Of a DNA stretch of 64,000 bases, positions 33,809 through 59,842 are shown piece by piece. The translations under genes were made by a program, and so were the position numbers. This stretch comes from Isoetes taiwanensis. Its lineage: Eukaryota > Streptophyta > Lycopodiopsida > Isoetales > Isoetaceae. The stretch is taken from contig JAJEKV010000211.1 of the NCBI GenBank assembly GCA_021234155.1, positions 744,001 to 808,000 of the forward strand, written 5' to 3'. The notes beneath the pieces were generated by a model. That model saw nothing but the letters and a program-made list of their open reading frames with translations. It ran no database searches and was not told where the DNA came from. Position 1 is the stretch's first letter. Each line of letters begins with the position of its first letter.

Positions 33809-33821
33809 TTCTCCCCACCTT
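33809..33821 (-). other. polypurine tract
   Basis: The reverse strand reads TAAGGTGGGGAGAA up to the LTR, as at 9739-9751. Confidence 0.8.
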
Positions 33822-37600: not shown

Positions 37601-38130
37601 GCTGTAGCTTGAAGATATAGGCTACTGTTAAGCTCCTTATGCTTTTGAGCAGGTGCTTACTAGACATACATTGCATAATAGGCAATCGACTTCCTTACAT
37701 GTGATTTCTATGATCTTTCCATTGGGCGCCGTGGAGGGTCACCTTCCGCTTTCCACAATCAATGATGGCTCCTGGCTGGGCGAGGTACTCCATCTTAGAT
37801 AATTAAAGTCGTACTTTCCAATGTTCATCACACCGGCTCCCATGGGGATGTTGATTCCCGCAAAGTCAATGTCGAAGTTTATCCTCTTTTGTTTTTGTGT
37901 GCCTTATTCCCGTTTGCTAGCACTCTGGTCTCGGCTTTGACTTCAATGGTTTTCAGCTTCAACATTTTCGACCATCTTTGGGGGCCTTAAAATTGTGGCT
38001 ACTTCGAGTCTATCAAGATTACAAAATGACTTGAACTTGGCCTTCCCTCTTTTGTGATATTACTTGATCTTTGCTTCTCGGCACGTTCAGTATCTATTGC
38101 GGCAAAGATGTGGCACTCACCTCACCTGTA
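34640..38130 (-). CDS. pol: chromovirus Pol, copy 2, partly open
   Basis: The best-preserved stretch is 37528-35954, an open frame of 524 codons with reverse transcriptase ([38 protein letters not shown] with the catalytic DD) and RNase H (ending near [14 protein letters not shown]). The integrase core follows at 35859-35323: CQLCQQTK of the zinc domain, [14 protein letters not shown] and DGQTERTNR supply the D, D and E residues. A TAG at 35323 replaces the CAG of the plus-strand copy. The C-terminus and chromodomain (34960-34640) are broken. The protease (about 38100-37690) is also damaged. Confidence 0.9.
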
Positions 38131-38149
38131 TGAAGTCGGGCGGGCCTGC

Positions 38150-39363
38150 CGCCGCCGTCGTCGGAGGGAGTCTCCCATCCGCCCATTTACGCTAATCTTT
38201 GTGTTCATGTGAGCGGCGGTTTGTCTGTCCTATGGCCCGGTTGGAAGCATCGAAGCGAGTTGCACCCCGATGCACTCCTGCCTCTTTTCTTTAGGTATTG
38301 CTTGTAAAAAGGACCGTACTGCTTTTGAGTAGTTCGACCCTTCCTGCTTGTCCTTGAAGGACACTCGCTTCCTCTCCCTGCCGCTTCCCCAGTTTGCCAC
38401 TATATGGGGATTTATTTGGACTCCGGCCGGCCGCTCTCGGGCTATAACTCCCACATTTGCCTTGCCTCTATCCCAGTAATATTCTTTGCATACGCCCTTT
38501 GTTTCGAGGTCCCGTTCCTTGCAAGCTTATTGCCTTGGATTCTGCTTCGATAACGGTCTTGGGGTCTATTGCCCTTACAAGCTTACGGATCTCTTCGTTC
38601 AATGCTTCAATATAGCTCTCCACTGCGTGCTTTTCACTCAACTTCGGCACATAAAGCCTTAGTCTCATGAATTCCTCGGTGTATTGCTGGACTGTTTTGT
38701 ACCCTTGCTGCAACTTGTAGAACTGCTGCATCATGTTGGACTTGTGTTCCCTTGGGACGTAATGGCGCTTGAAAGCTTTAGCAAACTTTTTGAATCTGCA
38801 CCCGCCTCTGCTTAAGCCATGGGCCTTGGCATAACCCTTCCACCAGATGCGTGCTGCTCCTTTAAGGTTGGCTGTTGCCATCCTGCCTTTGTCGTTGTTC
38901 TTTATACCATAGGCGTTGCCATACTCACTCATCTCATCGAGCCACGCCTCTGCTTCCAAGCCTGACCTGTTCTCGCCTGAGAATTGCTCAAGCTTCCTGG
39001 CCTTCCATACATTTCCAGTGCTGAGTCTACCTTCTTTTGGTAGTCTGAGGCTTTAGTGTCTTTCTGCCTGCCGTCTCTATGGTCCTGCACTTGTTCAACC
39101 TCTTTCTCGGACTCAGAGTCCGAGACCGAGCTTGAGTCGGAGGTATCTGTGCTAGGAGACCTCCTTCTCTTACTCCTCTTCTTATCTTTCCCCGACTTTC
39201 GAGGTGTTGCTTGCGGCCCTTGGGTGTTGTTATCCAGCCCGACTGATGCTTGCGCCACCAGTAGGGCTTTTATTTGTTGAAGCTCCGATTTCATTTGCGA
39301 CATTTCTTCTTCAGGAGTTAGAGGGCCGTATTCTTCGAACAGGTTCCTTGCAATTGGTTGCCT
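38150..39363 (-). CDS. gag: chromovirus Gag, copy 2, N-terminus replaced
   Basis: The frame 39426-38929 and then 38959-38468 covers a Ser/Asp/Lys-rich part and a Retrotrans_gag capsid domain (ARIWWKGYAKAHG, FKRHYVPREHKSN, LNEEIRKLVRAIDPK). The first codons of the open frame come from 3' non-coding DNA: the gag homology starts abruptly at 39363, inside the gene, where copy 1 continues to its normal ATG. This is the duplication joint. Confidence 0.85.
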
Positions 39364-40187
39364 GTCCGCAGCATCGTGGGTCTCCCCACCTTGGGATCTT
39401 CTTGTCTTGCAAACAACTTGATGCATACAATTTATTATTGCTACACTTATACATTTATTGACATTATCTTAGGTAATACTTCAAAACATTACTATCTAAC
39501 CAATAAGTTACAACAATATTTATATTTATTCAAGTTTATCAGTTTCATTATGTTTTCTTGGTACTCTTCATTCCTTGCAACACATTTCAATTACAATTGT
39601 GTTGCAAGTCTTTGTAGCTCGACCTCCTTGCCCTCCGGAGCGCTCTATTGGCCTGCAGGTCGACTACGTTAGTACCATTTTAATTATTTATAATTTTGGT
39701 TATAAGGGGACCACCCATTTAATTAACTAAATGGATGCATGACTAATCTCCCAGCGTAGGAAGAGGATGCTTCTTCCATCATGGCCGTGGAGACAGCGCC
39801 CTATAATGCCTACATGCCGCTCGTGCCTACACCTTTAGTTGCCCAGACGTGGAGGATAGAGTCCTTCCCGTAATTGGGGCGTGAAGGATGGGGTCCTCCC
39901 TGTAGGCATTGGCTAGAGGTGCTTCCCTATCCATGCATTCCTGAATGACCTCTTTTCTCTCGAGGTCATCTACTTCCGTGAGACGGAAGTAGACGTTTTA
40001 ATCTACTGTACAGCTAATTCAAGCAGAACCGTGGTCATGCCTACAATGACATTACACCACGTCCTAGGGATCACCGTAGTGGTCCCATCATCGGTAACAA
40101 CGCATGCAACCCATACCTAGCATAGGTTGTATGTGTAGATTAATCTTATTTAAAACTTCAATTAATCTACATAACGAACGACATGCC
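39364..40187 (-). other. 3' non-coding region after gag-pol copy 1
   Basis: It is nearly identical to 33834-34639 and ends about 25 bases short of where the polypurine tract and LTR should be. Small differences sit mainly at CAG/CTG sites. Confidence 0.8.
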
Positions 40188-43100
40188 TTAGTCGATTTCT
40201 TCGGAGATGATCTTGCCATCCCATTGCTTCATGAATTCTGGGTACTGCCTTATGAGGTCGTGCTTAAGTACCCACGTCGCGTCTTCCACTGGCAAGTGTG
40301 TCCACTTGACCAAGTATTGAAGAAACTCTGACCTCCTTGTTTTCTTGATTGCTTTACCAAGGATCAAGTCTGGGACTATCTCTAGCTGCTCATCTGTCAT
40401 TTCTAACAAGGTTGGTGTGTCCAAGACTTCTTCGGGGTTCGGAGTATGCTTCTTTAACAGACTCACGTGGAAGACTTTATGAATCTTTAGGTGTGCTGGT
40501 AGATCCAACTTGTAGGATTGATTACCTACTCTCTTGTCTATTCTGAAGGGACCCGCCCAGTTTCTTGCAATTTCCGATGCGGAGCTTTGCCTGTTTTACC
40601 TTGATCTTGAGCCAAACGTTGTCGCCAACTTCAAACTCTCTGACTGTTCGGTGCAGCGATGCTCTTTTGTCGACTCCTTGCTGCGAGAAGATATCCTCGA
40701 ACCTCTTCTACCAGCTGCTGCATGTCGGACAACATGTGCTGCGAAACCTCTACTTTTGACACTGGATTGTGCCAAGTGTCTGGAGTTAGGCATTGGTAGC
40801 CGTAGTTGATCATGAACGGCGACATTTGGGATGATTCCTACTTGGTGCTATTATACGCGAACTCCACCAAGTGAATAAACTCTTCCCACATACCCTTCTT
40901 GTTCCAGACATAGTTTCGTAGCATGTCTTCCAAAATTCTGTTGGTCCGTTCCGTTTGCCCATCCGTCTGCGAATGATAGGCCATGCTCATGGACAACCGT
41001 GCAATTGTCGTGAATAGATCTTGCCAAAAGGCACTCATTCTCGTCGGAGATGATTTCTCTCGGCATGCCATGGAGCCTGAAGATCTCTTTGGTGAAGAGC
41101 TTTGCTGTATCCAGAGCTGTGTCTGTGGTCTTGCATGGTACAAAGTGTGCCATCTTCGACAACTTGTCGACTACAACCATCAAGGCATCCTTCCCTCTGA
41201 CTGTCCTTGGAAGCCCTGTTATGAAGTCCATGCTGATGACCTCCCACTTAGCGTTTGGCACCGCTAATGGTTCTAATGCTCCTGGAACTCGAAGTTGCTT
41301 TGCCTTTGTTTGTTGACATAACTGGCACTCCTTGATGTATCGAGCAATCTGCTTCTTCATGCGGCCAATAATAAGCGCCCGGATTTTGAAGTAAGTCTTC
41401 ATGAATCTGCATGGCCAGCTATTGGCTGTTTTGTGGGTGTCGTCGAGAATCAATTTCCTCCTCGATGACTCGGCACACACAACTTATTCTTGTGGTATAA
41501 GAGGTTACCTTCTTTCTTGAAGTTCTTGAAGGTTTCCCTCTCCTTATGCATCCTTGCTTCTTTGCACGCTTCGCCCATACTTCCTTGAAATCTATATCGA
41601 TGGCAAGGTTTCTTCAATCTTTTCTTAGAAGTCATTTGGTGAGCATGGATATTGCGTTGCAATGGACTCTTGTTGTCGGGGGTGCCTTGAAAGTGCATCT
41701 GCTACCACGTTGAGCTTCCGGCTTATAGACTATGTCAAAGTCATATTCCTCGAGGAACTCCATCCACCTTCTTTGCCTCGGGTTGAGGGTGTGGTTGCGT
41801 GAAGGCGTATTGGAGACTCGATGATCGTGTCAAGTTGGAACTTCCTTCCTAACGGATAGTGCCTCCAAATCCGTGGCATACGACAACCGCAAGTAGCTCA
41901 CGGTCATGCGTCGGTAGCGTGTTTGGCGTCGTTCATCTTTCGCGTGAATCATATGCTACCACTTCGCTCTTCTGCATCAATTTGCGCTGTAGCAATTTTG
42001 CTTGCATCTGTTGCTCTGAGCTTGTCCTTCTCGGGGTGCGGCAAGGTTAAGGCGGGGCGGTTGTCGCTTCTTTCAACAAGTCGAATCCAGCTTGAGCTTT
42101 CTTCGCCCGGTGCTCGCCCAATCTTTCACCTTCTACGCCCTTGTCAAATCTGTTAGCGGGGCTGCTATCTTTGCAAAAGTTCTTTCTGAACTTCCTATAG
42201 TACCACCGCTAGGCCGAGAAAGCTTCCCGACCTCATGGATGTTCTTTGGTGCGGCCATTGTATCACCGCCCGATCTTGGCGGTGGTTCCGCCGAAATCCC
42301 CTCATTTGAGATCACATGCGGGGTAGTCTACCCTCTCCGGTGGCCTAAGTGACACTTTGACAACTTCAAGGCATACTGGTGTCTTCCGAGCTCTCCAAAG
42401 ACTTTTCTTAGGTGTTGTACATGTTCTTCTAGGGTTTCTTGTATACTAAGATGTCGTCAAAAGAATACTATGCCGAATGCATCTAGGAACTCCCTGAAGA
42501 TGTCGTTCATGAGTCTCATGAACGTTGCTGGGGCATTCGACAATCCGAACGGCATCACGGTGAACTCGTAATGCCCATATCGGGTTCTAAATGCAGTCTT
42601 GTGGACGTCTTCTTCCTTGATCCTGATCTGATGGTATCCTGACCTCAGGTCGATCTTGGAGAATACCTTTGCACCTTGGAGTTGATCCATCAGGTCGTCC
42701 GATCTTGGGAGCGCATACTTGTTCTTGATGGTGTGCTTGTTTAACTGCCTGTAATCTATGCACATCCTCAAGCTACCATCTTTCTTTTTTACGAATAAGA
42801 TAGGTGCTCCAAATGGCGAGACACTAGGTTTGATGAAGTCTAGGTCAAGCAACTCCTGCAATTGCTTCTTCAGCTCGATTAGTTCTTGCGTTGTCATCCT
42901 GTACGGCGCTTTGCTTGTTGGTTTCGTCCCTGGTTCGAGTGCTATCTCACACTAGACTCCCCTGTAAGGAGGAAGCTTTTTTATCTCATCCGGAAAAAGA
43001 TCGTGGAACTCTTTTACCAACGTAGCTATCTGTTCGGGTAGCTTGTTGAGCAACTTATCTTCCACACTTTCTTCTTCGGGCTCCTCAAGCAGTAGCTTGA

Positions 43101-43570
43101 AGATATAGGCTACTGTTGGCTCCTTATGCTTTTGAGCAGGCGCTTACTAGACATACATTGCATAATAGGCACGACTTCCTTACCTGTGATTTCTATGATC
43201 TTTCCATTGGGTGCCGTGAGGGTCACCTTCCGCTTTCCACAATCAATGATGGCTCCTGCTGGGCCGAGGTACTCCATGCCGATAATTAAGTCGTACTTTC
43301 CAATGTTCATCACCTCGGCTCCCATGGGGATGTTGATTCGGTAAAGTCAATGTCGAGTTTATCCCTTCTTGCCGTTTGTGTGCCTTATTCCCCGATTTTG
43401 CTAGCACTACAGGTCTCGGCTTTGACTTCAATGGTTTCAGCTTCAACATTTCGACCATCTTTGGGGACGCAAAATTGTGGCTACTTCCAGAGTCTATCAA
43501 GATTACAAATGACTTGGACTTGGCCTTCCCTCTTTGTGATATTACGGATCTTTGCTTTCGCCTGTTCCGT
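40188..43570 (-). CDS. pol: chromovirus Pol, copy 1, broken
   Basis: Domains run protease (43500-43110; [23 protein letters not shown]), reverse transcriptase (42960-42457 clean, then broken), RNase H (badly broken, 42160-41700), integrase (41480-40830; [18 protein letters not shown]; the second Asp region is damaged) and a clean C-terminal frame, 40508-40188. That last part carries [15 protein letters not shown] and a chromodomain with [19 protein letters not shown]. In chromoviruses this domain steers integration to modified histone H3. Confidence 0.9.
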
Positions 43571-43599
43571 ATCTATTGCGGCAAAGATGTGGCACTCAC

Positions 43600-44904
43600 C
43601 TCAGCTATGAAGTCGCGGGCCTCCCGCCCGCTGCCGCCGGAGGGAGTCTCCCATCCGCCCATTTGCCGCTAATCTTTGTGTTTGATGACGAGCGGGCAGT
43701 TTGCTGTCCTATGGCCCGGTTGGAAGCATCTGAAGCAGAGTTGCTTTTCGATGCACTCCTGCCTCTTTTCTTTAGGTATTGCTTGTAAAAAGGACCGTAC
43801 TGCTTTTGAGTAGTTCGACCCTTCCTGCTTGTCCTTGAAGGACACCTGCTTCCTCTCCTGCTGCTTCCCCTGGTTGCCACTATATGGGGATTTAGCTGGA
43901 CTCGGGCTATAACTCCTCGTTGCCTTGCCTCTATCCCGTAATATTGCCATACACGCCGTTCGGAGGGTCCGGATTCCTTTTGCAAGCTTATTGCCTTGGA
44001 TTACGCCCGCAAGATCTTGGGGTCTATTGCCCTTACAAGCTTACGGATCTCTTCGTTCAATGCTTCAATATAGCTCTCCACTGCGTGCTTTTCACTCAAC
44101 CCGGCACATAAAAGCCTTAGTCTCATGAATTCCTCGTATGTATTCTTTGATTTTGTACCCTTTGCCGCAACTTTGTAGAACCGCCGCATCATGTTGGACT
44201 TGTGTTCCTTTGGGACGTAATGGCGCTTTGGAAAGCTTTAGCAAACTTTTGAATCGCGACCCCGCCTCGCTTAAGCCATGGGCCTTGGCATAACCCTTCC
44301 ACCGGATGTGTCTTTGCTCCTTTAAGGTTGGTCATTTGCCATCTGCCTTTGTCGTTGTCCTTCATACCATAGGCGTTGCCATACTCACTCATCTCATCCA
44401 GTGTGCGCCTCTGCTTCCAAGCGACACGTTCTCGCTTTGAGAATTGCTCAAGCTTCCTCGGCCTTCCATACATTTTCGGTCTTTGAGTCTACCTTCTTTT
44501 GGTAGTCTAAGGCTTTAGTGTCTTTCTGCCTGCCGTCTCTATGGTCACAGACTTGTTCAACCTCTTTTCGGACTCGAGTCAGAGGCCAGAGCTTCAGTCG
44601 GAGGTATCTGTGCTAGGAGACCTCCTTCTCTTACTCCTCTTCTTATCTTTCCCTGACTTTCGAGGTGTTGCTTGCGGCCCTTGGGTGTTGTTATCCAGCC
44701 CGACTGATGCTTGCGCCACCAGTAGGGCTTTTATTTGTTGAAGATCCAATTTCATTTGCGACATTTCTTCTTCAGGAGTTAGAGGGCGTATTCTTGAGCA
44801 GGTTCCTTGCAATTGGTTACTGTGTCGGGGTTTCTTCATCTCAGTTGCCTCTCTGTTTTGTTCGATTTCTTTGTTCCCCTAATTTTGCATACACATTTGA
44901 CCAT
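43600..44904 (-). CDS. gag: chromovirus Gag, copy 1, broken
   Basis: The ATG at 44904 matches the position of the plus-strand gag start at 4069. The capsid region is frame-shifted in several places. The zinc knuckle is intact here (43760-43710): CFRCFQPGHRTANC, the CX2CX4HX4C pattern that binds RNA. A Lys/Arg-rich segment (GKDKKRSKRRRS) lies near 44620. Confidence 0.85.
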
Positions 44905-45079
44905 AGCCTTACGGTTAGATTCGTTTGTTTTATTGCGTTCATGTATTTGCCGATATAGTTTTGGAACGAAATACAATCAACAAAACATTTTAATATTGGC
45001 AACAAAATATATTTATTATGTAATATCTCAATTACAATGCTACTTAGGGATTAAGAATCTAACTATTCTTGAAATCGCG

Positions 45080-46595
45080 GTAGGATGGGTTATCTTCGAG
45101 AAATTTCTTAACTTGGGCGTTCTCTGCGTCCCAAGTTCTGAGATGTTGGTTGGCGTCAGCCTGTAAATTTGTCACCAATTCCTCTACTGCTGATGATCGG
45201 AGGAGGTGTGGGCGCGGTTCTTGCTAATCTTCCTAGCGTCGGTAGGGCGGTCGGTCGAAGATGTCCAATGCCATCGCTCTCTTGACTAAGGCGGCATAGT
45301 CGATGTTTTGCGACGGTCGAGCATGCATGCCAAAGCGGAGAGTGCGATGAGCATAAACCTCCTTCTTAAGCCCACGGGGCTGAATTTCGCGATTGTATTA
45401 CCACTATTCTCCCATCGGCGTGACAAAGGAAGATAGTACCTCGGCTGTCATTGTTATTTGCGTTGTTGATGACTTCGTCGCCCCTCGGCCCGGCTCTATG
45501 TCTTCCGGTATTCATCGACTTCTACCTCATTGATTTCTCTCGTAATCCCGATTGTCGATGAAACTTCGCTGATGTCAATTCCTCCTCTTAAATGCGTGGG
45601 AGCTAATGTCGAAGAGCTCGACATCAAAATGCTTCGCGTGGTCTTGCCACACGGATCCCCATCCGTTCTTGGATGGCATAGAACTCCTCCTCGGATGGCA
45701 GGGTTCCGAGCTTCCATTATTTGCTTGATGTTGCTTTGTAGGCTTGGAGGTCGAAGTCGACTCTCCGTATAGGTGTCGGCTTTCTCTCACTTCAAAGCGG
45801 GAAATTTGAGACTCCGGGACGACAAAATCATCTAGGGAGTGCAGTTTCGCTGCGCGGTTGGTGCAAAGAACTTCGCCGAGTCGGAACTTTCTCCCCGCAT
45901 TCGGGAAGGTTCGGATGTCACCGAGGAGCGGGTACTCCTCGTGAGTCAATGATGATGGGGTTCTGGGCTTGTGATACCTAGCCCGGGGGGGGCGACTCTG
46001 AGGGTGGTTGGAGGCCGGCTTCGAGAAGTTGGGTAACTCTTCTTCCGCTAGCCATTTGTTCTTCCTCTTGGGTCGAGCTCCATGTACTCTTCATCTTAGA
46101 TTCCTCTTCTTCTGTTCTTCTTTCTTGCTCCTCACGATATTGTAAAAAGGAGCTGGTCTTTGCCGAGGATGCTATGGGGTCCACCTCCATGGGAGGGATA
46201 GAGGTTTCCCCATTGGGTTTTCATTGTGGTGGGAAAGGGAAGATCGCTAAAGGCGGTATAGGAAAAATACTTGGTCTGTCGCTAACCGCCGGGACCATGT
46301 AATCTGGCAGCCTCTGGGCCTTGTTGGTCAAGTACTTGGCAATGTTCTGAACATCACCCAAGGCTGCTTGAAGGGATGGGCGGGGGACAAAATAGCCTGT
46401 ACAAGGGGGAAGCTGCACTAGGGATTGTCCTACCCTAGCTTGGAACTCCGTTAAAACTTGCCTATATGCTGGCGTTGCATGTAGAGTTGCTTGGACATCA
46501 ATCTCTTTTTGGAAAAGTTGAAAGATGGTATTGACATTGGTCTCAGCTGCATGGGCACTGGCGCTGTACCATCGCCTGAAGTCAGCAGTTGCCAT
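45080..46595 (-). CDS. second cargo protein of unknown function, minus copy, broken
   Basis: The ATG at 46595 opens MATADFRRWYSASAHAAE, placed by its TATA box 122 bases upstream. The first 125 residues are one open frame and align with the plus copy (IDVQATL, EFQARVG, FVPRPSLQAALGD). An acidic and basic middle part (46190-45978) and a patch around LHSLDDFVVPES (45949-45575) follow. The C-terminal part is scrambled but recognisable (DGRIVV at about 45410, VKRAMALDIFD near 45260). No known domain is recognised. Two copies keeping the same order and promoter argue for a real gene. Confidence 0.65.
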
Positions 46596-46708
46596 TGCTC
46601 TAGGGAAGATGCAACTAACAAGCAAATCTTGAAGCGCCTCACGGGAGTTTGGGAAATCGCCTAAAGGGTCGAGAGCAAACTTGTAGGGTGTCAAGTGAGA
46701 AATGGGGC

Positions 46709-46717
46709 CTATTTATA
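46709..46717 (-). promoter_or_regulatory. TATA box of the second cargo gene, minus copy
   Basis: TATAAATAG on the reverse strand lies 122 bases before the ATG, identical to the plus copy. Confidence 0.7.
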
Positions 46718-46911
46718 GAATAAGGGAAAAACCCTAATTTTTTGGGTAACCTAGAAATTTATTGGAGTTGGGCAATTATGACCTATTAGGAGGTCCAAAT
46801 GGGGATTTGAAGGCTACTTTGGGTGTTTGAGCATCCTGGAACTACCTAATGAACCTATTGCAACAAACTGGAGGTCAATTGGATACGGCATTGTGGAGAA
46901 AATGCTAGGAG

Positions 46912-46978
46912 ATCTCACACGTTGCGCCCAAATCAAAACTGGGAGTCTTGGTTTTGCTCCTGGCACGACGTGTGAGAC
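46912..46978. repeat. 67-bp inverted-repeat element, minus copy a
   Basis: The arms are CTCACACGTTGCGCCCA and TGGCACGACGTGTGAGAC, 67 bases in all. It corresponds to the hairpin at 1998-2064 by position. Confidence 0.8.
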
Positions 46979-47109
46979 ATCGACCCTATCTTGGTCAAAA
47001 CTTGTCCAATTTGGGTAATCTAAGGTCTAATCTGCTAGACTCATCGAGTTAGGCATAATGGACCCCTTACTTGGTCGATTTGGAGGTGTTTTGGTCCAAT
47101 TTGGACATG

Positions 47110-47176
47110 GTCTCACACATTGCGCCCAGCTCAAAACCTGGAGTCTTGGTTTTGCTTCTGGCGCGACGTGTGAGAC
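47110..47176. repeat. 67-bp inverted-repeat element, minus copy b
   Basis: This is another 67-base copy, with arms GTCTCACACATTGCGCCCAG and CTGGCGCGACGTGTGAGAC. It corresponds to the hairpin at 1799-1865. Confidence 0.85.
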
Positions 47177-47315
47177 ATCCTCACTACTTGCTCTAAAAGG
47201 TCTAATTTAACTAAAACAAAAGCTATTAGTTGCTAAGTCAACTTAGTTAAGTACATTTATATACTTAGTCTACTCAAAAACACTTGTATTAAACAAAATT
47301 TTTGATTTACAAAAT

Positions 47316-48588
47316 TTAATAGGGCTCTCCCTTAATTACACTGGCCAAGTGCATATCCTTCTTCATTAAGGTGACTCGCTTGGCATGCACGGTGCAGGCG
47401 GTGGAATCTTCAAAATGTTGCACTATCTTTTGCTCAGCCGCTTCCTGTAGTGCCAACAGCATTTCATCTGTTACCCTCATGGCGGTGTTAAACTTCTGCA
47501 TTACTTCTCTAACTAAACGGGCAAACGGTGCACGGGGGATTAGGAAGCCGAAGCTGCGTTGGAAGTGCCTGATTTCTCGTAGTGCCCTTCTCTCGTTCTC
47601 CTTTCTGCTGGCTCTCTTCTTCGCTGGCTTCTTGGGAGGCTTGGGCTTTTCTGGCGGCGGCCTTAGAGTCTGCTTCTTCGTCGGATGTCCACCTTCGATA
47701 GTTCTTACTCTGTTTTGCTGGTAATAGGAGTTGTAATCCTCCCACTTCTTCATGTACGCGTTGTGCTCCCTCATCTTCCTCTCGTAGACCTTGATGGGGT
47801 CTACCACATAAGATTCTCGGGCAGGTCGTGGCTGTTTCTTCCTGTCCCAAGTTGGATATGGCGGAGGCTTCTGCACTTGATCCGGCTGTTCTTGGTCCAC
47901 CTGCTCTGCCCCTGGGGGCTTCAGTGTTAGGGTTGAAGTCCTCGTCGTCAGAGTCGTCGGACGAGGCAGGTTTGTCGGCCGGCCGCTCCTGGATAACGAC
48001 CGTTGCTCATGGAACCTTCTTGATCTTCCTTTGGCCCGCCTCCACGAACTTTCCTTTCTTCTGCTTCAGTTCCTCGGCCTCTTTGGCCTCCTGCTCCTCC
48101 CTCTTCCTCTTCTTCTCTGCCCTCTTCTTCTCTCGGCGGCGGTCTTTTGCCTCGTGTTTCTTGATCCATGCCGCGAGCTCTTCTTCTTCCAATTTGGATC
48201 GGCGTCGGCTCCCTCATTCTTCTTGCTCTCTGCCTCCTTCTCTCGAATCCGGGCTTGAGTTCTTCCTCCATGGTCGGCTCGAGTCGGTGCCTCTGCTCTT
48301 CCGCGAGCCTTGGTTCTCGTTCTCGCTGCTTCTTCATCCTCGAGCACCTGTGCACGCATCAGGTGCACCTGCGTCTTGATCGACCTGCTGGTCTATCTCC
48401 TCGTCCTGTGCTCCTCCCTGCTGGGATCCTTCTCTCTGGTGCTCATCTGAAGCCGTTCCCTCGTTCGATGAAGACTGGTCTCCTCTGTTGAGAAAGCTCA
48501 CGAAGCATCCCTGCATGTATGGGTTTGGATCTTGGCTGGTCGATTCGCCAAGTCGGGGAACTCGAGTGGTCTGTTTGGTCCTGGCCAT
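47316..48588 (-). CDS. histone H3-like cargo protein, minus copy, broken
   Basis: The ATG at 48588 opens MARTKQTTRVPRLGES, whose first seven residues match the H3 tail. A linker of about 300 residues is Glu/Lys/Arg-rich and changes frame near 48340 and 47950. The final frame, 47900-47316, contains EHNAYMKKWEDYNSYY and a Lys/Pro-rich stretch. It ends in a complete H3 fold at 47582-47319: REIRHFQ, LIPRAPFARLVREV, LLALQEAAE, QHFEDSTACTVHAKRVT and KDMHLASVIKGE, with no gaps against plant H3. Loop 1 has the length of ordinary H3, not CENH3. It has its own TATA box and lies first after the 5' LTR. Role unknown; a chromatin mimic or a targeting factor is plausible. Confidence 0.88.
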
Positions 48589-48691
48589 GTTTTACGGCTC
48601 GTCGATCCGAGGTCGGCGCTTAAAGATCGCCTTAAAAAGCGGGAGCAGATTCTCTAAGGGGGGGAAATGTACAAATGAGGGAGGTCTAGAT

Positions 48692-48700
48692 CTATTTATA
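48692..48700 (-). promoter_or_regulatory. TATA box of the H3-like gene, minus copy
   Basis: TATAAATAG on the reverse strand lies 112 bases before the ATG at 48588. Confidence 0.7.
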
Positions 48701-48802
48701 GTTTGGGCAATTTTTAGGTCAAATTTCAAGTTGCTCTATTTAATGTGCCAGGGCACCTATTGACTTAAAACATATACTTATTTCAGAGTTTTCTAAGTAT
48801 TG

Positions 48803-48869
48803 GTCTCACCGCGTTGCCTGGGCCAAAACCTAGAGTCTTGGTTTTGCTTAAAGTAGCGACGTGTGAGAC
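48803..48869. repeat. 67-bp inverted-repeat element, minus copy c
   Basis: This 67-base copy is upstream of the H3-like promoter, with a disturbed left arm (GTCTCACCGCGTTGCC). A further right half alone, GCGACGTGTGAGAC, lies at 48988-49001. Confidence 0.75.
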
Positions 48870-49193
48870 ATTGTACATTTTGACTAAATTATGTGATTGT
48901 AATATACCATTCTAGCTAAATCTTATCTTAGAACTCGATCTAGCATGTTACTTTTCTGAAATTCATCAACTTTTAAGGTGTTTATGGCCGCGACGTGTGA
49001 GACCTTCTTGCTTTAGAAGGATTTGGCTCACTGTTTTTAATCTTTTTATGTTCCAATTCACTTAACTGTTACTAGCTTAGCATATACCACAAAAATGAGA
49101 AATTTTTTTCCCATTTTTCGAGGTTTGAGGATCCTATCAAGTTAGTACTACTGGGAGCATGGTCAGTGCTTTGCTCTTGGTCTCCAAGAACAT

Positions 49194-49206
49194 TGCTCTG
49201 ATACCA
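49194..49206 (-). other. primer binding site, initiator-Met tRNA type
   Basis: The reverse strand reads TGGTATCAGAGCA, one base after the 5' LTR end. This is the standard plant retrotransposon site for initiator tRNA-Met. Confidence 0.9.
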
Positions 49207-49207
49207 C

Positions 49208-49472
49208 TGTGACGTCCCCTACTCATATACGGTGCACTACCGTATACAAACAGGAGTTCATCCCCCATACCAGCTCCATGCTAATATAGGGCCCTCCACG
49301 TAACACTGCAACCATGGAATGTTCCAGTGGGAAGAATGAAGGGGTCATTTACCCTGTCTCCCTCAGGGCCTACCTAGCTGCGGAAGCGTAATATATACAC
49401 GTCAATAGCACATACATCAATAACATATCACCACCACGAAGGGTGGCTCACCACATAATCTGCATAGACAAA
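49208..49472 (-). repeat. 5' LTR of the nested chromovirus, inner part
   Basis: It matches 32276-32540 almost exactly, then stops where the DNA transposon begins. The rest of the LTR resumes at 58590. Confidence 0.9.
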
Positions 49473-50309
49473 TTCACAAGGCACCCAAAATTAAAACCAA
49501 TATGGGTTTTTACCCTAGTTATATATATAAAACTGCTTAATAAAACCAATACATCTTTGTGGGTTGATATCATTAAAAACCTTATATGAATTTTATATGG
49601 TGTTCACCAAGGTGGTTTTCTAACATGTTTAAAAGCAATAATTAAATATAATGCTTTATATGCATGGTTTGTGAATGTGGTGTGGTATGGTGGTAATAAG
49701 ACGTGGTTTAATATATTGTTATATATGCGTGGTTCTTAGAATGCTAAAATAGCATGGCTTATTGATGTGGTAAATTTATATGGTTCTCCTTATGTTTACG
49801 TGTCATAGGTCATGATTGTTTAATGGCCTAAAGCCTTGCATGTTTATGCATCAAACCCATAATGCTTTTAGTATGCGATGATGGTTTAGTAAGTTTTTTA
49901 TGGACTGGTTAAAGTTCATAAATCATTAGTGTTTTGTTTCGAAAGCAGATTAAGATACTTTATAACACCATATCATTTTATTTTCTTAACTTGTAGTGGT
50001 TTCTTTGTTCAAACCCTTCATAATAATTGGTGTGTTATCTGAAGCATATATCACTACCGTCTTGTATATGACTAGTGGTTTCTAAAAGATAGTCCCAAAT
50101 TCCATAAGCTTGCAAGATCAAAAAATAATAAAAACAAATAAATCAAAGCTATGAGGATTTGAACCCCATTTTAACCATATATTGTGCATTATACCCAAAG
50201 TGGATACTTTAGTCATGCACTAAATCACTTTCTTCATATTGACTTATCCTCCGCACATTTTATTCAAAAAAAAGGACCTATGATAATTTATTAAATAAAA
50301 AACTACTTG

Positions 50310-52466
50310 TATATGTATACAAGTATTTTGCAGCTTAGATGTGGAAATTGAAGTAATTAACAATGAAAAACAGAACTATAGAATGGTAATCTCGTTTGCC
50401 TTGAAAGTGGTCGCAACCTCAAGGCCATTTTGGAAGCGCTTTGAAGTGATACCACATACACATAGACCAGACCGATAGTAAGTTGATTAGAAAGAAGCTC
50501 AATGCACTTTGCTCAAACATTACAAAGATGTGGGTGGTAGCATTCAAATCAAAATAACGGTTTTAAATTGAAGAACACGGGAAGAATTATCGGATGGTGG
50601 GCTCGAAGCCAAATATGCCCATTAGGAAATGTCTCACCCGTTCTTTTTCTTGATGCCCAAAACCGGCCCAACTAATTCCTTAGCAATAACGGAGTTAGAA
50701 AGGGCTGTAGACGCTATTGATCCCATTTTGTAGATGTACCAATACGTTGGAAATATTGGGATTTTCCTCGCCCAACCTTGAGGCCCCTTGTGGAAATCAC
50801 ACGCACTCCATGAAACCTAGATTGGATCAAAGAAAGATTATATTTTTTGCATAGAAAACCGCATAAAACATCATGGACAAGGATTTTACAAAGAAACCGC
50901 ATTTTTCAAGGTCACAAAAAGAGGTTTCCATGATTATAATAAAGCGGCATTATCTTTATCAACCAAATAAGACATCACTTTGGAAGATTCAACATCATTT
51001 ACCGATGACATTAAATATGTTTCATGCGTACAACAATTAAAGAACCTAGTATGAAAAACATACACTCGCTTCTGTTTAGATTAATTGCACATTTTTGCAC
51101 ATTTTGCAAATTTTCAAAGCAGAAACAGACCTCCACAATGTGAGATGAGCATCCAAATGAAAATCGTCGATGGTGACATCAAGAAAAGTCCGATGTGGCT
51201 CCATCTTCACATGAGCAATACCAGGTGCCTCCCATTGAAAACCATCGGCTCTGTATTTCCTTCATTGCGAACAATGAAGTAAACCTTGCATCCTGCATGA
51301 TGGGGTTTCAAGGTTAGGAAAAAAAGAAGGGCTGGTAAATAGGGAAGACAAAACGAATGGTTACGTCTTTTTGAGATGGTTAAAAAGAAAAACCGACATC
51401 ACTTTATACTTTGAACCCATGGCCAAGAAGAAGACAAAAGTTTCCTAATTTTATCGTTTTAGATTTTTTTTTTTTTCTTCTTCATGTTTTATGCTATATC
51501 TCTAGGAGGTCAGAATTGCACCCCCTAGTCAGTAAATGATGGGGCAAGCATACATTAACCCATGCACTTAATCAATTTATCATCAAGTTATAACTTGAGT
51601 CTAGACCATCAAAAAAGAAAGTAAACAGATCCAATCATTTAGACTACCAAAAGATGCCAGCTTGCAAGTAATAGAACCAACTCAGATCTTTGCGGAAGCC
51701 AAAGAAATCGGCAAAGAAAGAAAGTGCTAACCAAGTTCGTGAGCTTATTGTATAGCGATTAATTCGGGGCTTGAACATAAACCGCCAACGTTAATGCCTT
51801 CCAATCTTTGGATTTACATTGTTGTGGGTGTTGGCCTGGAAAAAGAACCCAAATAAGCACAAAAAATACATGACATGAATTCACACTGCCAAAACGACTG
51901 ATGTTTGCTATCAGCAGTGACAAAGGCACCTAAAATACTCACAAAATTGACAGTAAGATATAATTTCCCCATTTGATAGCCAACAAAGCAGTAAAAATGG
52001 GATCAACCTCTTACTTTACCACGGCTACAATGATTATTGCCATGCTTACTGGAATCAAGATTTTCAGCCGGATCGCTACCATGGGGCTTCTACATGCATC
52101 GTGCTACCTTTTACGAAGCAAGAAATTTGGGCATGTTGGCAAAGAAGGAAGAAAGCAGACAGAGGAATCCTTCTAGGATGTGAATCTTTGCAAACAACAT
52201 CAAGTCAAAAGTATGATTCAGAGTGTAAATAAGGAAATACCGATTGCCTGTCAAAAGGCACGCAGCATGCCTAAAGGTCTGCTAATGTCCCTCACTGGAA
52301 GCAAAAATGTAACTCTATTTCAAGTTCAACTCAGAGCAAGCAAACCTCCAAACTGAGAGAATCAGAGCACAATGTAAGATTACGGGGCTGTTTGCTGAGA
52401 ACAGACTCCTTACTTGGCTTCAATATGCACCCAAGTTTTTAAACAATGATATACAAGTTTAAAGTC
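50310..52466. repeat. 2.16 kb tandem duplication, unit 1
   Basis: Unit 1 runs from ATATGTATACAAGTATT to AAGTTTAAAGTCT and is directly followed by unit 2. It contains short exon-like pieces on the minus strand but no full gene. Confidence 0.88.
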
Positions 52467-54627
52467 TATATGTATACAAGTATTATGCAGCTTAGATGTG
52501 GAAATTGAAGTAATTAACAATGAAAAACAGAACTATAGAATGGTAATCTCGGACTGCCCAGAGCAGCAGTCGCAACCTCAAGGCCATTTTTAGAAGCGCT
52601 TTGAAGTGATACCACATACACATAGACCACTGATAGTAAGTTGATTAGAAAGAAGCTCAATGCACTTTGCTCAAACATTACAGCATGTGGCTAGTAGCAT
52701 TCAAATCAAAATAACGGTTTAAATTGAAGAACACGGGAAGAATTATCGGATGATCGAGCACTCGAAGCCAAATATGCCCATTAGGAAATGTCTCACCCAG
52801 TTCTTTTCTTGATGCCCAAAACTAGTTCCAACTAATTCCTTAGCAATAACGGAGTTAGAAAAGGTCAGTACTCGCTATTGATCCCAAGTCGTAGATGTAC
52901 CAATACGTTGGAAATATTGGGATTTTCCTCGCCCAACCTTCGAGGCCCCTTGTGGGAATCACCGCACTCCATGAAACCTAGATTGATCAAAGAAAGATTA
53001 TATTTTTGCATAGAAAACGCATAAAACATCATGGACAAGGATTTTTTACAAAGAACCGCATTTTCAAGGTTACAAAAAGAGGTTTCCATGATTATAATAA
53101 AGCTGGCATTATCTTTATCAACCAAATAAGACATCACTGGAAGATTCAACATCATTTACTGATGACATTAAATTTGTTTTATGCGTACAACAATTAAAGA
53201 ACCTAGTATGAAAAACATACACTCTGTTTCGTTAGCTGCACATTTTTGCACATTTTGCAAATTTTCAAAGCAGAAAACAGACCTCACGGTGCAGATGAGC
53301 ATCCAAATGAAAATCGTCGATGGTGACATCAAGAAAAGTCTGATGTGGCTCCATCTTCACATGAGCAATACCAGGTGCCTCCCATTGGAAACCATCTGGC
53401 TCTGCATTTCCTTCTGTTGCGGACAATGAAGTGAACCTTGCATCCTGCATGATCGGGTTTCAAGGTTAGGAAAAAAAGGAGGGCTGGTAAATGGGGAAGA
53501 CAAAACGAATGGTTACGTCTTTTTGAGATGGTTAAAAAAGAAAACTGACATCACTTTATACTTTGAACCCATGGCCAAGAAGAAGACAAAGGTTTCCTAA
53601 TTTTATCGTTTTAGATTTTTCTTTTTTCTTCTTCATGTTTTATGCTATATCTCTAGGAGGATGTAAATTGCACCCCTAGCTGTACATGATGGGGCAAGCA
53701 TACATTAACCCATGCACTTAATCAATTTATCATCAAGTTATAACTTGAGTCTAGACCATCAAAAAAGAAAGTAAACAGATCCAATCATTTAGACTACCAA
53801 AAGATGTCAGCTTGCAAGTAATAGAACCAACCTGTACTGCGAGCGCCAGCAAATCTGACAGCAAAGAAAGTGCTAACCAAGTCTGTGAGCTTATTGTATA
53901 GCAGTTAATTCAGTTGAACATAAACCTGCCAATAGTTAATGCCTTCCAATGCTGGATTTACATTGTTGTGGGTGTTGGCCTGAAAAAAAAAACCCAAATA
54001 AGCACAAAAAATACATGACATGAATTCACACTGCCAAAATGACTGATGTTTGCTATCAGCAGTGACAAAGGCACCTAAAATACTCACAAAATTCCGCAAG
54101 AAGATATAATTTCCCCATTTGATAGCCAACAAAGCAAAGAAAAATGGGATCAACCTCTTACTTTACGCGGCTACAATGATTATTGCCATGCTTACTGGAA
54201 TCAAGATTTTCAGCCGGATCGCTACCATGGGGGGGCTTCTACATGCATCGTGCTACCTTTTACGAAGCAAGAAATTTGGGCATGTTGGCAAAGAAGGAAG
54301 AAAGCAGACAGAGGAATCCTTCTAGGATGTGAATCTTTGCAAAACAAAGATCAAGTCAAAAGTATGATTCAGAGTGTAAATAAGGAAATACCGATTGCTT
54401 TGTCAAAGGCACGCAAAGATGCCTAAAGGTACGCTAATGTCCGCTAATGTCCCTCACTGGAAGCAAAAATGTAACTCTATTTCAAGTTCAACTCAGAGCA
54501 AGCAAACCTCCAAACAGAGAGAATCAGAGCACAATGTAAGATTACGGGGCTGTTTGCTGAGAACAGACTCCTTACTTGGCTTCAATATGCACCCAAGTTT
54601 TTACAATGATATACAAGTTTAAAGTCT
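52467..54627. repeat. 2.16 kb tandem duplication, unit 2
   Basis: Unit 2 aligns with unit 1 from end to end. Differences cluster where one unit has CAG or CTG and the other does not. A minus-strand exon-like piece at 53450-53282 (GIAHVKMEPHQTFLDVTIDD) ends at a GT and may be captured gene sequence; I do not recognise it. Confidence 0.88.
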
Positions 54628-54797
54628 TTGACGCTGATGATCTCAATGTGGGTTCCTACAAATTGATCAAGAGAAAAACTTTTCAATCCTCGCTGTCCGG
54701 TTTTAAAAGCACGAATCATGCAATCATCGTATATGAAGTACCTATGGTGAAAGATCTTGGTACGAAACATGAGCATGCGCCGCATGAAGAAACGCAT
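54582..54797 (-). pseudogene. captured gene fragment, unrecognised
   Basis: An open frame starts MRFFMRRMLMFRTKIFHHRY and has a clear coding look. It lies just outside the second repeat unit and reads into it. It could be the first exon of a captured host gene whose later exons lie in the duplicated unit. I cannot name the protein. Confidence 0.4.
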
Positions 54798-55469
54798 ACC
54801 TAGATAAAAAAAAAGGAAATCGCAAACTGTTAACCCTAACTCAATCAGAAGACCTGTTTCAGCGCAATCAGGAGCTTTGGAGCATCACGACACTATCTTG
54901 ACCAAATCGAGTGTTTTGAGCGCTTTACCTCAAGCGGATTCAGTGATTGGAAGCCATCGGACAGGAAAAGAATATCTGGAAATGGAAAAGGGGGAAAAAG
55001 ACTTGAATTCGTAAAGGGCAACGCAACCCTAAACATAACAATTAAAACTTTTGCTCCTTCATGTAGTGGATAGACATATTATGGGTATATTACTGGATAT
55101 TCATTGTACCTGCATAGACCTGCTGTTGGAGGTTGCCGGTGGTGGTCTTATCTAAATCCAGTGTATTCTCAAATTCGGTGGTTCATCCCCTTGCAATGGT
55201 TCTAACCTAATCATCTTTCTTGCTCTTCTTACCCTTCCATTGCTTTTTCTCAATTCTTCCCTGCCTTAATTTTCACAGGATTTGGATATGTCATTTTCAA
55301 ACTGCAAATGAACCCTATTTTGCCCTTGGAGGATCCCCCTCCTCCCCCTTTTTGTCATTCCAATATGGAACATCGTTGTTGTCTGGACTGCTTAAACATA
55401 GGCTTAAATTGCTCTTCTAGGGTGTTAAGATCAATTCGTAATAAATAAAAGCCTTCTTGTTCTTGAGAT

Positions 55470-55780
55470 AAATTAGATGAGACCTTGGCCCCGTGACTTC
55501 CATTGATGTTGGCCAAATTTGGAGCCCATTATAATTGCCATAATGAAATAAAGCCCTAACAAGCTGTCTATAATGCTTGTTACGGACAAACTATAACTAT
55601 TCTTGATAGTAGAGTTGGAGAAAAATCTGATATTTTGCAAAATTGTTGTTGAAGATGATAGCTTAAGATTTGCAGTTGGTCCAGAAAATATGTAGTCGTT
55701 ATCTTGAGTCCAAGACACTCCCTTGCTATCTGTATAGCTCTTTGAAGCGCCACAAAATCCAGGATTAAGAATCATGTTCA
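55470..55780 (-). pseudogene. malectin-like receptor kinase fragment
   Basis: The frame reads GFCGASKSYTDSKGVSWTQD, then DNDYIFSG, LQNIRFF and SYSLSVT. This is the opening of the malectin-like extracellular domain of plant receptor-like kinases. After a frame change the RALFYYGNYN motif is still visible. Only this one domain part is present and no kinase follows, so it is a fragment carried by the transposon. Confidence 0.7.
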
Positions 55781-56046
55781 AAACAATTATACCCCTTTCA
55801 AGAAAAAATCTAAACTCATGGACAACCCTTCACATGTAACACCTTGTTAATTTAGACTTTGAAAACCATGTGGATGGTTTTGTATTGCAAATCAACAATT
55901 ATACAAAAGTTTCCCAACAAAATATAAGTTCAGGCTGGAATTCACAATAGATAAAGAGGCTGGGCTTCAGAATAGAGCAGAAAGAACCTCCCAACATCAA
56001 GGGTGATGAAGAGGTGCTGGAACCAGAGAAAATATTTACACACCAA

Positions 56047-57360
56047 GATAAGAATAGAATACAATAGAATATGATTTTATCGTCCACGGAGACCAACTGG
56101 CCTATGGGACCCAAGTACAAAGAGAGAGAGCAAAGAAAGCGATATTACTACGGGATTAAAAACCCCGCCCCAAGGGTTTTTGGGAAAAACCTTAGTAGCA
56201 ATAAGGATGCCGACATCCGCATGATTATATATATAATCACAAGTACAACCGAGGTTAATGCCGGACGGGGGCATAACCGAGTCCCGCGTATCCATTACCT
56301 CCCCTGAGGTACGATCCCAACAAGCCTACGAGAGGCCGTGCTTTCGATTAGCTCATGCAAGGCGATGGGGCACAACTAACCGAAAGCATACCGAGGCCGG
56401 ATATGCTCAGATAGACGACGTGCTGGAGGGCATGACTTTCATCCTCAACGGCGCTGTTGTTGACAAAGACTGCAGGACTCGGCCCTCACGCTGCTCCCGA
56501 ATCCATCTCCCTGTCTCAACGCGGAGGTGGTGTGCACCTGTCGCGAATGGAAGCAATCACCTGCGCTTTTTCATGGGTAGATGGGTGCGCAGTAGTGGTG
56601 TGGCCCCTCGTGAGCATGGGATTAACTCATTGCCGATAATTTGCCACCTTGACATGTGACAGGCCTCAGCATCCCAAAGCTTGGCCATGAAGCAAGCATC
56701 CAAGCTTCGCTTCAAGGCAGCGTGTTCCTTCGGTATGCATGCCACCGGTCCACATCTGTGCCTCGCACATTCCATAGCGAGAACCACCGGGCTTGCTTGT
56801 CTTTCCAAAGAGGCTTTGAGTCGCCGGGCCCATCGCCACGCCAAAGCAAGGTTGGGCAGCCGGGCTTCATCCATAGCCACCACCACCTTCTCGGAAGTAA
56901 ATAATGTGACGTTCCAAATGACCCTCGTAATGGAAGGAAGCCTGTCTCCGGAGCAAGATCGATATGGGACCGTGGATTTCACTCCCGAGGCCGGGCCAAG
57001 AAGGCCTTCAGTACTGCTCTAGATCGTTCCAAGTGGTGAGGGATATCACCGCCCCCACACTACGCCCCATAGAGGAGGACCCGGTTCAACCAAGGCCCTG
57101 AACAAGTGTGCCTGGTGACCCCATGCATCTGACTACGCCTTGTGATTGTTGTTTTGCATTGCATATGGGGCTTTCCCACCGCAGATGTGACCGTAACGAT
57201 GGATGCATCCGGTGTGTGGTAGTAGAAAACTCAATGCCCAAATACTTATAAGGTGAGCCACCTCCACTACACCTCGGTAAGTGAATAAGGAGACTAGGAG
57301 TTCCACCTATCGAAGGTATCTTGTGAAATTCAAATTTCATCCGATCCACCGATGTGGCAT
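56047..57360 (-). pseudogene. LINE fragment inside the DNA transposon
   Basis: The minus frame 57349-57086 has the end of a plant LINE reverse transcriptase, YKYLGIEFSTTTHRMHPSL. A C-terminal part follows at 56982-56557 with Cys and His residues. The left end reads, on the minus strand, into GTCCCATA...GTGGACGATAAAAT and then ATTCT-like units, a microsatellite tail. It is 5' truncated. Confidence 0.6.
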
Positions 57361-58586
57361 GGTATTCTAAAATTCAACTAAAAGAATATGGCTCGCTAGT
57401 GGTGGAATATGAGCGAACTTTGCAATAATAGTGGGCAAAGTTTAGAGACCTTCAAATTTTGTACTTGGAACTCTCTAATATTAAAATTGCAATTACTCAT
57501 AAATTCTTTATTAACGATTGTAAAGATGTCAAGTAACCTATAATGTAAAGATGTCAAGTAACCTATATACTTCGTGGATTCAAGTGGCTGCATATGCAAT
57601 TTGCTACAATGAGAGAATCTTACGCACTCCTTAAAAGTTGTATTACCTCTAATGTCATTGAGGAAGTATGATTGATTACTTCTAGATTCAAGTAATCATA
57701 TATGTTGTAAATTGCAACACATTTCTTAAATAAAGACAAACTTGCCATCCGTTTCTTAAAAATATTTAAACTCAGGTAATACACATGATGCTATAAAAGG
57801 TATGCTCCTTTATAGATTGACATATGGTAAATTAAAAAACTGGATATTTTTACAATGTTGTAAATGCAAGTGGTTTGTTTGGTATCATAGAACAAAAATC
57901 ATATTGACATATTGAAATCAAGTTTATTTAACATATTGAAATCAAGTTCATTTACCATGGTTAACATACCATGGCAAATTAACATGATCAAATATTGTAT
58001 CACTAAACTTGGTGTATTAGTTTAGTACACATCATAGATACCGTATATTGGTCGTGAACCTTTCGAGCAACCCAAAAATAATTATACCTATATTGGTCTA
58101 GTAACGATTAGTTATAATAGCTATTTCCTTTGGAGTCTTGTGTTAATAGCCATCATGAAATGACGACCCTTTTGAGTGAAACTTATGAGTAACCACTAAT
58201 AATAGAAAAACCAACATGAATAATCACTATGAAATTTAAAATAGTATTAAAAACTCCCACAATTGAAACCAATGTGAATAACCATCATCACCTTGAAACA
58301 AATATTGAAAAACTCTTAAGAAAAGCCACTACCAATTTGATAAACCATGGTATAATAAAAAACCATAATGAATTACCACTATTGCATTAAAAACCATATC
58401 AAAAACCATTATCAACTCAAATAAACCATGCTTCAACAAAAAACCAATATAATTAACTATGTACTAATTATAAAAACCACAATAATATGTGGTTTTTATT
58501 AAGGATAAAAAAATCTGCATAGAAAACCACACCAATAGTGGTTTTTTAGTGGTAAATTATAGTAGTTAATTTTTTGGGTGCCTTGT
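57361..58586. other. right subterminal region of the DNA transposon
   Basis: AT-rich. From about 58080 on it is dense in AAAACCA motifs that mirror the TGGTTT motifs at 49490-49960. No gene is visible. Confidence 0.55.
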
Positions 58587-59842
58587 AAAGATCAGTACAT
58601 CACATAAGGGAGTTCTACCCCGGATCAGACTCAGGGTTGGACTGACAAGCTTGGGTCCTCAGGAGAGGTCAAGCGAGTGAGTGCAATACTTGATGGAGTT
58701 GGTGGCAAGGGAACATGGCAATCGGGTAGTCCGCTCCATCCGCCCCTCCTGTGTACACTTTGCGAGTAGGTTGATAAGTCTTGGGAATTTGGATTGTAGC
58801 CACGGGAGGCATAGCCAAAGGGGCTATTCACGGGTTGCATCTCCCGGCCCGATGGGGGCGGGTAGGGATTACTCCCACGAGAAGCTAACAAAGCTGACTC
58901 AAAGGCGACTAGAGGGCCACGCCCTTACCGGTGAACTCCATGGAAGGTGTACACCACCCCAAGAGTGTCGAACCCATGCAACAACCCCCACGCCTTGGGT
59001 GGTGCATTAGATCTAGTATCTTTGAAGTCCCCGATAGGCCTTACTACCGGAGGGGCGGTTCATGAATCGGGACATGAGCTTCCTTGTAAGCCCGATCGGT
59101 GGTCGCCACCCACAACCGGGTTTGGTTCTTATGCAATGGGCGAATACTAGTAATGCACTAAAGGGACTAGCTAGGAGCATCAACTACTAAGGCATGTGAG
59201 GTCTCTACCCCCTTCCCAATACAATGAGTCCACAGAGATCATCCATCCATCACATCATTATAGAACTAAAGAATAATATCTAATCTACATCATAGAAGTT
59301 ATGTTCTTTAGTTAGGGCTTGCTATATGGGGTTCTATGTGGCTGTTAAGGGCAATTCAATAGGCTAAACATGCTAACTCTATGCCCGAAAGGCGGATTAG
59401 GCTATTGAATTGACGAAATACATGGTCCTTGGCTTGCTCCTCTTGATCCGAATGCGTCCATGTCCTTTGTCTTGCTTGCGATGCGGGGGAAAGGAAGTCC
59501 GACGAATTTGCCGGGCGCTTCGGACAGATCTTGGGAGTCGGGATTGACTCTTGAAACTTGAAAGCGGACTCGAAAGGACCGTGGACGAAAAAGGGAAAGT
59601 TAGGGTTTGGTGGCCTTACATAGGCTATCAGTTAGGGTTAGGGTTTCCATGACCCTTGGTATGCCTCTAATGGTTAAGGTCTAAAGTGTGCACATTAATA
59701 AGTGTGCGCACCCTTGAAGTTGCCCCCTAGGGCGCTACTTGCTTTGGCGCACGGCGCATTACGCACGGATTGAATGGCGTCTACGGTGGCAGTGCGGTTC
59801 GATATATCGTCTTGAGACCGTATATCGTACTGGAATGTCACA
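58587..59842 (-). repeat. 5' LTR of the nested chromovirus, outer part
   Basis: It matches 32541-33808 and ends in TGTCACA at 59842. Many differences from the 3' LTR are at CAG/CTG sites, so LTR divergence should not be used as a clock here. Confidence 0.9.

Follow-up and report, generated by a model that had tools for sequence, protein, structure and literature searches.

A high-copy chromovirus lineage of Isoetes taiwanensis carries a gene for a histone H3 variant, and it is almost certain that this is a gene of the element itself, kept by selection. Histones are core machinery of the host, and here an H3 variant borne by an LTR retrotransposon is selected about as strongly as the element's reverse transcriptase (RT), which means that some of the chromatin of a selfish element may be of its own making. 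Two copies of the gene lie in the 64,000-nucleotide stretch of DNA analyzed (contig JAJEKV010000211.1, positions 744,001 to 808,000; hereafter the window, numbered from its first letter), one in a minus-strand insertion (element B) and one on the plus strand (copy A).

The minus-strand copy starts with an ATG at 48588 and reads MARTKQTTRVPR, the tail start being MARTKQTTR. An open reading frame covers its 5' part (48337..48588, minus strand; tail start and first part of the linker), and its 3' part (47319..48065, minus strand) comprises the end of the linker and the complete H3 fold; the two stand in different frames (48591-48334 for the tail, 48065-47316 for the fold), so the gene is broken. 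The fold scored 93.9 bits against Pfam PF00125 (E 1.1e-26; curated cut-off, 26.4 bits), its top match among PDB sequences was histone H3.3 (E 1.5e-24), aligned without a gap, and AlphaFold2 predicted the alpha-N helix and the three core helices in the 3' part (153-171, 178-191, 200-230, and 235-244). The preliminary description of this copy, a MARTKQT start followed by a complete, gapless H3 fold, was thus borne out. The same tail start and fold had been ascribed to the plus-strand copy (406..1652, by open reading frame and PF00125), and this held in part: the fold is present (frame 1269-1652; E 4.8e-26, 91.9 bits) and the ATG at 406 opens MARTKQ, but a stop follows after one further residue and the gene is frameshifted. 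Likewise, the claim that an H3-like protein is encoded stands for the complete folds and for 11 intact single frames at other loci of the genome, but not for either window copy, both being broken. A further helix was predicted ahead of the alpha-N helix of the minus-strand copy (47697-47798, minus strand; model residues 90-123, pLDDT ~80), in a block of moderate conservation (pN/pS, 0.294).

Element B is a chromovirus (Ty3/gypsy). Self-BLAST of the window delimited the whole insertion at 32276..59842 (minus strand), with an insert nested in the 5' LTR and an internal duplication; its ends are TG..CA, and AGTAT lies on both sides (32271-32275 and 59843-59847). The 3' LTR (32276..33808, minus strand) pairs with the downstream part (49208..49472, 98.9%) and the upstream part (58587..59842, 87.7%) of the 5' LTR, both on the minus strand, the downstream part being followed by the primer-binding site TGGTATCAGAGC. 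This pair is patchy, 32276-32540 and 49208-49472 being the 98.9% segment and the rest 87.7% identical, perhaps through gene conversion. The gag-pol region (33832..44818, minus strand; self-BLAST and Pfam) is a tandem duplicate (33832-39359 and 39362-44818, 91.6%) with Retrotrans_gag, RVT_1, RNase H, integrase, and chromodomain (PF00385, E 3.1e-07) matches. The gag of copy A was found at 4549..4965 on the plus strand (Retrotrans_gag, E 1.5e-12).

A second gene, ORF2, is conserved at ~508 amino acids, the length of a reference copy elsewhere in the genome (L009:4481-6004). A tblastn search with this copy located broken versions in element B (MATADFRRW..., 45068..46595, minus strand, including the stretch 46224-46595) and in copy A (2379..3919, plus strand). 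ORF2 matched no Pfam family above the cut-off, and no partner histone was found among those proteins of the element that were searched. Its one public relative among the 8000 scored candidates sharing most words was P0141 (source lgn), with 49% identity over 99%. A third ORF2 relic lies in the window at 60144-60707 (24% identity to the L009 protein, E 7e-8).

The assembly of 1,658,258,908 bases in 1110 contigs was searched, and 150 of 11,788 first-pass candidates were scored. We read 42 copies, 20 with 9.5 kb of context, 20 with 1.85 kb, and the 2 in the window; the sample is not random, the first 20 being the best matches and the second 20 partly chosen for long open frames. The H3 fold was present in all 42. 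A tblastn search with a tail-like query, which strongly drifted tails escape, detected the H3-tail start in 38 of the 42 and missed it in L012, L018, L045, and copy A, in the last of which it is visible by eye. One open frame runs through tail and fold in 12 of the 42 copies; L026 lacks an ATG, which leaves 11 intact genes of 429 to 456 amino acids. The last residues are altered in L030 and L042. The elements are laid out as LTR, primer-binding site, H3 gene, ORF2, and gag-pol: the primer-binding site was found in 17 of 22 loci, and among the 20 long loci gag was found in 16 and RT in 14 (L015, L017, L022, and L025 have neither).

The neighbors of the gene keep steady distances. Among the 85 ORF2 matches listed (from 15,120 candidates), at least 28 have a listed H3 match on the same strand 525 to 800 bp upstream, against a chance expectation of 0.01. 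A listed H3 or ORF2 match lies upstream of at least 12 of 80 related RT matches (from 40,995 candidates), a lower bound from a comparison of 80 of the 81 RT rows with 15 H3/ORF2 rows picked by eye; the distance from RT to H3 was 4274 to 4313 bp in four of the five H3 cases and 2837 bp in the other. When we looked blind at the H3 distance from two further RT matches, the fold was present at one (L078) and absent at the other (L077). The LTRs of L026 are 98.3% identical over 1071 bp, so at least one copy is young; those of L010 are 93.5% identical, and no LTR pair match was found for L027. Because its position is fixed in the elements read, because it has its own TATA box, and because it is under purifying selection at near-saturated synonymous divergence, the gene between LTR and gag is part of the element, as had been proposed. 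A host H3 family misread as element genes was rejected, as the H3 copies in the loci read have gag, RT, a primer-binding site, and ORF2 near them at steady distances; seven host-like H3 loci (L053-L059) moreover hold a normal 136-amino-acid H3 in a single frame.

Selection on the fold was then determined, with the first 16 codons of copy A, the last 8 of L042, the last of L030, and all stop codons masked as gaps. The comparison of dN/dS across copies under a codon model gave an omega of 0.085 for 42 sequences, which is strongly purifying and far from neutral, and the fold frame is open in the intact copies; fixing omega at 1 cost 397 log units (lnL -3186.2 versus -3583.1; 2 delta lnL ~794). 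The median dS of 1.38 is near saturation and is undefined for some pairs. The ratio was higher in pairs with dS below 0.1 (median, 0.27; 9 pairs), in line with the decay expected after insertion. Within the same loci, which were chosen by the H3 protein and so favor the fold somewhat, pN/pS was 0.097 for the fold (21 loci), 0.135 for RT (14), 0.264 for the N-terminal part of ORF2 (20), and 0.380 for gag (17), one tblastn match being taken per locus and codons inserted relative to the query being dropped. Across the 11 intact copies, which were chosen for open frames, as were 9 type II frames (see below), pN/pS was 0.075 for the tail start (on nine codons), 0.414 for the linker, 0.255 for the pre-fold block, and 0.115 for the fold. 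Among 39 copies compared with element B (copy A and L042 excluded), 21 are more than 15% distant from it in nucleotides (16 to 27%) and retain 82 to 94% amino acid identity in the fold. The best amino acid identity in 12,000 draws of a neutral simulation was 80% at 15% distance, 73% at 20%, and 66% at 25%; because neutral draws stay below the observed identity, the conservation of the fold is not an effect of choosing copies by the likeness of their proteins.

The protein consists of H3 residues 1-8, a charged linker of ~290 amino acids, a remnant GGHPTKxQTLR, and the fold; a full H3 tail of ~40 residues adjoining the fold is absent. T3 and K4 are kept in all 38 detected tails, a set that includes broken copies; R2 and R8 are kept in 36 each, T6 in 35, Q5 in 34, and A1 and A7 in 33. 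Position 9 holds V in 23 tails, K in 14, and R in 1, and where it is K the next residue is A, P, L, or R. The motif ARKS is the setting of the silencing methylation of K9 and K27, while K4 is able to carry active marks. ARKS occurs twice in host H3, in none of the 11 type I proteins (those of the kind found in the window), and in 1 of 9 type II proteins, three of which lack the N terminus. In 40 of the 42 folds (copy A and L042 left out), we counted the residues of the H3-H3' four-helix bundle and the main DNA contacts: C110, D123, L126, R69, and R72 are kept in all 40, H113 and R116 in 39, and R83 and T118 in 38. All 40 have P in place of R63 and V in place of F84, R129 is kept in 7 of the 40, and K122 is kept in 28. 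The type I fold of L029 scored 96 bits with PF00125.

The H3 gene and ORF2 look like separate Pol II genes, judging by the signals upstream of each. A TATA box, TATAAATA, lies 112 nt before the H3 ATG of element B (48693..48700, minus strand), and others lie at 296..303 (plus strand) before that of copy A and at 46710..46717 (minus strand), 122 nt before the ORF2 ATG of element B. Across type I elements, 38 of 39 copies have TATAAATA 89 to 119 nt ahead of the H3 start codon, and 21 of 21 have it 103 to 124 nt ahead of that of ORF2 (some of the ORF2 starts being set by extending a partial match); these upstream sites make up 59 of the 73 such octamers in 250 kb. Repeat comparison also revealed an inverted-repeat pair, TCTCACACGTCGC ... 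ACGTGTGAGA, upstream of the H3 gene (48803..49002, minus strand) and a second pair upstream of ORF2 (46913..47175, minus strand); the second arm of an outer inverted repeat upstream of H3 was not found in the element B copy. The repeats have CACGT cores and mostly lie ~200 bp apart; where both copies of a pair were found, the spacing was 134 to 214 bp before H3 (134 bp in element B) and 163 to 200 bp before ORF2. Pyrimidine-AG sites, looked for as candidate splice acceptors in the 150 nt upstream, were present before H3 in 7 of 12 copies and before ORF2 in none of 12; 41 of 1412 background windows had one.

A query with fern CenH3 led to a second chromovirus lineage, type II (L065-L072 and L049-L052), with a near-canonical H3 fold (141 bits with PF00125 in L071), a different N-terminal part (RIPYPIFHF...), and, in the proteins with a visible start, no conserved ARTKQTAR. 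The fold pN/pS was 0.119 (9 frames). At least 22 of the 94 ORF2-II matches listed have a listed H3 match 93 to 244 bp upstream (chance expectation, 0.006), a comparison that used 107 of 150 H3 rows and 94 of 95 ORF2-II rows, the other 43 H3 rows being those of host H3 together with part of type II. The ORF2 proteins of the two types are remotely related (22% identity, E 3e-9). In L073, protease, RT, RNase H, and integrase share one downstream frame, and the stretch stops short of the chromodomain. No TATA box in a comparable position was found in the 265 to 370 nt upstream of type II genes at five loci or in 630 nt at L050, where one TATA box lies at -242, and no inverted repeat was found in L049-L052. 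In the fold tree, from which P0138, L052, L064, and L068 were excluded, each of the two types has a clade of its own, with support of 100/99. On grouping with CenH3 the tree shows a fork at 86/85; neither a clade of type I with CenH3 (p-AU 0.498) nor one of type I with type II (p-AU 0.139) was rejected, so one H3 capture and two are not separable. Most of the named proteins that match the type I fold best outside these elements are plant CenH3; loop 1 speaks against membership in CenH3, since by eye count it lacks the extra residue of the plant CenH3 rows. Type I differs from plant CenH3 also in keeping the H3 tail start and in its ~290-amino-acid linker.

As for what the gene does, the H3-like protein would be made from its own TATA promoter, would pair with host H4, and is likely to enter nucleosomes, as far as its residues tell; pairing with H4 is likely because most of the H3-H3' bundle and the DNA-contact residues are kept. 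Nucleosomes with the element's H3 on new or integrated element DNA could then carry K4 marks and be poor substrates for silencing, as the retained K4 end and the lack of ARKS sites suggest; the argument from K9 fails for some subfamilies, since K9 is present in 14 of the 38 tails. The reading as a whole, that a resident H3-variant gene of the chromovirus lineage pairs with host H4 in nucleosomes and hinders silencing, we regard as probable. Its most likely use, held tentatively, is to form nucleosomes on element DNA that bear K4 marks, lack the two host ARKS sites, and are harder to silence. Rather more speculatively, the H3 variant and the second gene might be a long-held chromatin kit that gives the element's own copies a private, silencing-resistant chromatin; in this still doubtful extension, the type I TATA boxes sit behind paired inverted repeats spaced by ~200 bp, about the length of one nucleosome. 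A sharp prediction about silencing follows from the retained K4 end and the absence of ARKS motifs, and whether mobile elements write chromatin state instead of just undergoing it becomes directly testable.

Other uses of the protein were weighed against the same residues. It might act off the nucleosome, its free ARTKQTAR end occupying tail readers or writers and its fold serving for chaperone binding or dimerization; this we consider unlikely. The N terminus directly behind Met1 is kept, with K4 in every detected tail, the tail start has a pN/pS of 0.075, and normal histones have no such long charged linker, all of which fits a decoy. A protein acting purely as a decoy could, however, do without a complete fold, whereas this fold is as constrained as described and retains the majority of its tetramer and DNA residues, and ARTKQTAR is not kept in type II proteins with a visible start. 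The element's H3 could instead be a landing mark for the integrase chromodomain, or a link between the integration complex and chromatin. Such a tether is in keeping with the encoded chromodomain and with the ARTKQTARK tail of some subfamilies, but residue 9 is V in most tails and the chromodomain, aligned by eye, keeps W45 but not Y24 and Y48, which the excerpted text of PMC3350952 gives as essential to the aromatic pocket, and we hold it to be improbable. A role in packaging, with the histone covering the element's cDNA inside the particle or at nuclear entry, is distinctly improbable: a basic DNA-binding histone gene does share the element with gag, and the DNA-contact arginines R69, R72, and R83 are conserved, but the gene has its own TATA box in place of a Gag fusion and no partner histone is among the element's proteins searched.

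Two further explanations concern the origin of the gene. A descent of type I from CenH3, by which the protein would target elements to centromeres, finds its footing in the outside matches and in the clade with CenH3, which was not rejected; the alternative clade with type II was not rejected either, the extra loop-1 residue is missing by eye, the H3 tail start is kept, and the listed copies are spread over many contigs. We consider this route very improbable. To a passenger gene, picked up from a host H3 once by chance and carried without function, we give hardly any credence. There is a precedent in fungal transposons that picked up H3 and left hundreds of dead copies (excerpted text of PMC6710886), but a neutral passenger in Isoetes is ruled out by the omega, by the fit at omega 1, by the same-locus comparison, and by the neutral simulation, and the conserved TATA box speaks against it as well.

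Transposons with an H3 gene are already known; what differs here is the class of element, its age, the selection, and the gene anatomy. We found no LTR retrotransposon with a histone gene in the open-access literature, a scope outside which most subscription papers and preprints lie, in agreement with the preliminary description; fungal hAT DNA transposons with H3 have been published, though (PMC3538342, PMC6710886). The main text of the Isoetes taiwanensis genome paper (PMC8566536) does not contain the word histone. According to the excerpted text of PMC3538342, a hAT DNA transposon of Pyrenophora tritici-repentis carries H3L, a multicopy gene that is represented by ESTs and has an N-terminal tail interrupted by insertions; its 26 very similar, recently spread copies fully match neither H3 nor CenH3. 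The Isoetes gene is likewise an H3-like gene of a transposon, with an N-terminal insertion and many copies, but its carrier is an LTR retrotransposon lineage with gag-pol and LTRs instead of a hAT transposase and terminal inverted repeats, and it combines near-saturated synonymous divergence with purifying selection. In Pseudocercospora fijiensis and relatives, hAT elements multiplied H3 into hundreds of copies (784), which RIP has inactivated and most of which are truncated, as stated in the excerpts of PMC6710886; multiplication of H3 by a transposon is common to both cases, whereas RIP inactivation and truncation are features of the fungal copies. LTR retrotransposons of bdelloid rotifers also have genes beyond gag-pol, enzyme-like or env-like in the portion of PMC5408684 at hand (DEDDy, GDSL), and its main text has 0 occurrences of histone. 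Chromoviruses of non-seed plants share gag-pol, RT, RNase H, integrase, and chromodomain with the Isoetes element, and the excerpts of PMC3350952 do not mention a histone gene.

No public protein related to the type I protein over its full length was found among 20 matches (8000 candidates sharing most words scored), whose query coverage, where given, was at most 27%. Three public proteins (P0135, P0119, and P0090; sources lgn and ena) have an H3-like tail start, a long linker, and an H3 fold, P0119 standing for a cluster of 25 members, and these may represent the same strategy elsewhere; no relative of P0119, P0135, or P0141 was confirmed among viral contigs. Two minor features of the window lie apart from the H3 gene. 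The 5' LTR of element B is interrupted by a 9.1-kb insert (49473-58586) with the inverted ends CACAAGGCACCCAAAA and TTTTGGGTGCCTTGT, probably a DNA transposon, which holds a 2.16-kb tandem duplication (50310-52467 and 52467-54627, 92%). A LINE-like reverse transcriptase frame was found at 24113-24943 on the minus strand (RVT_1, E 1e-23).
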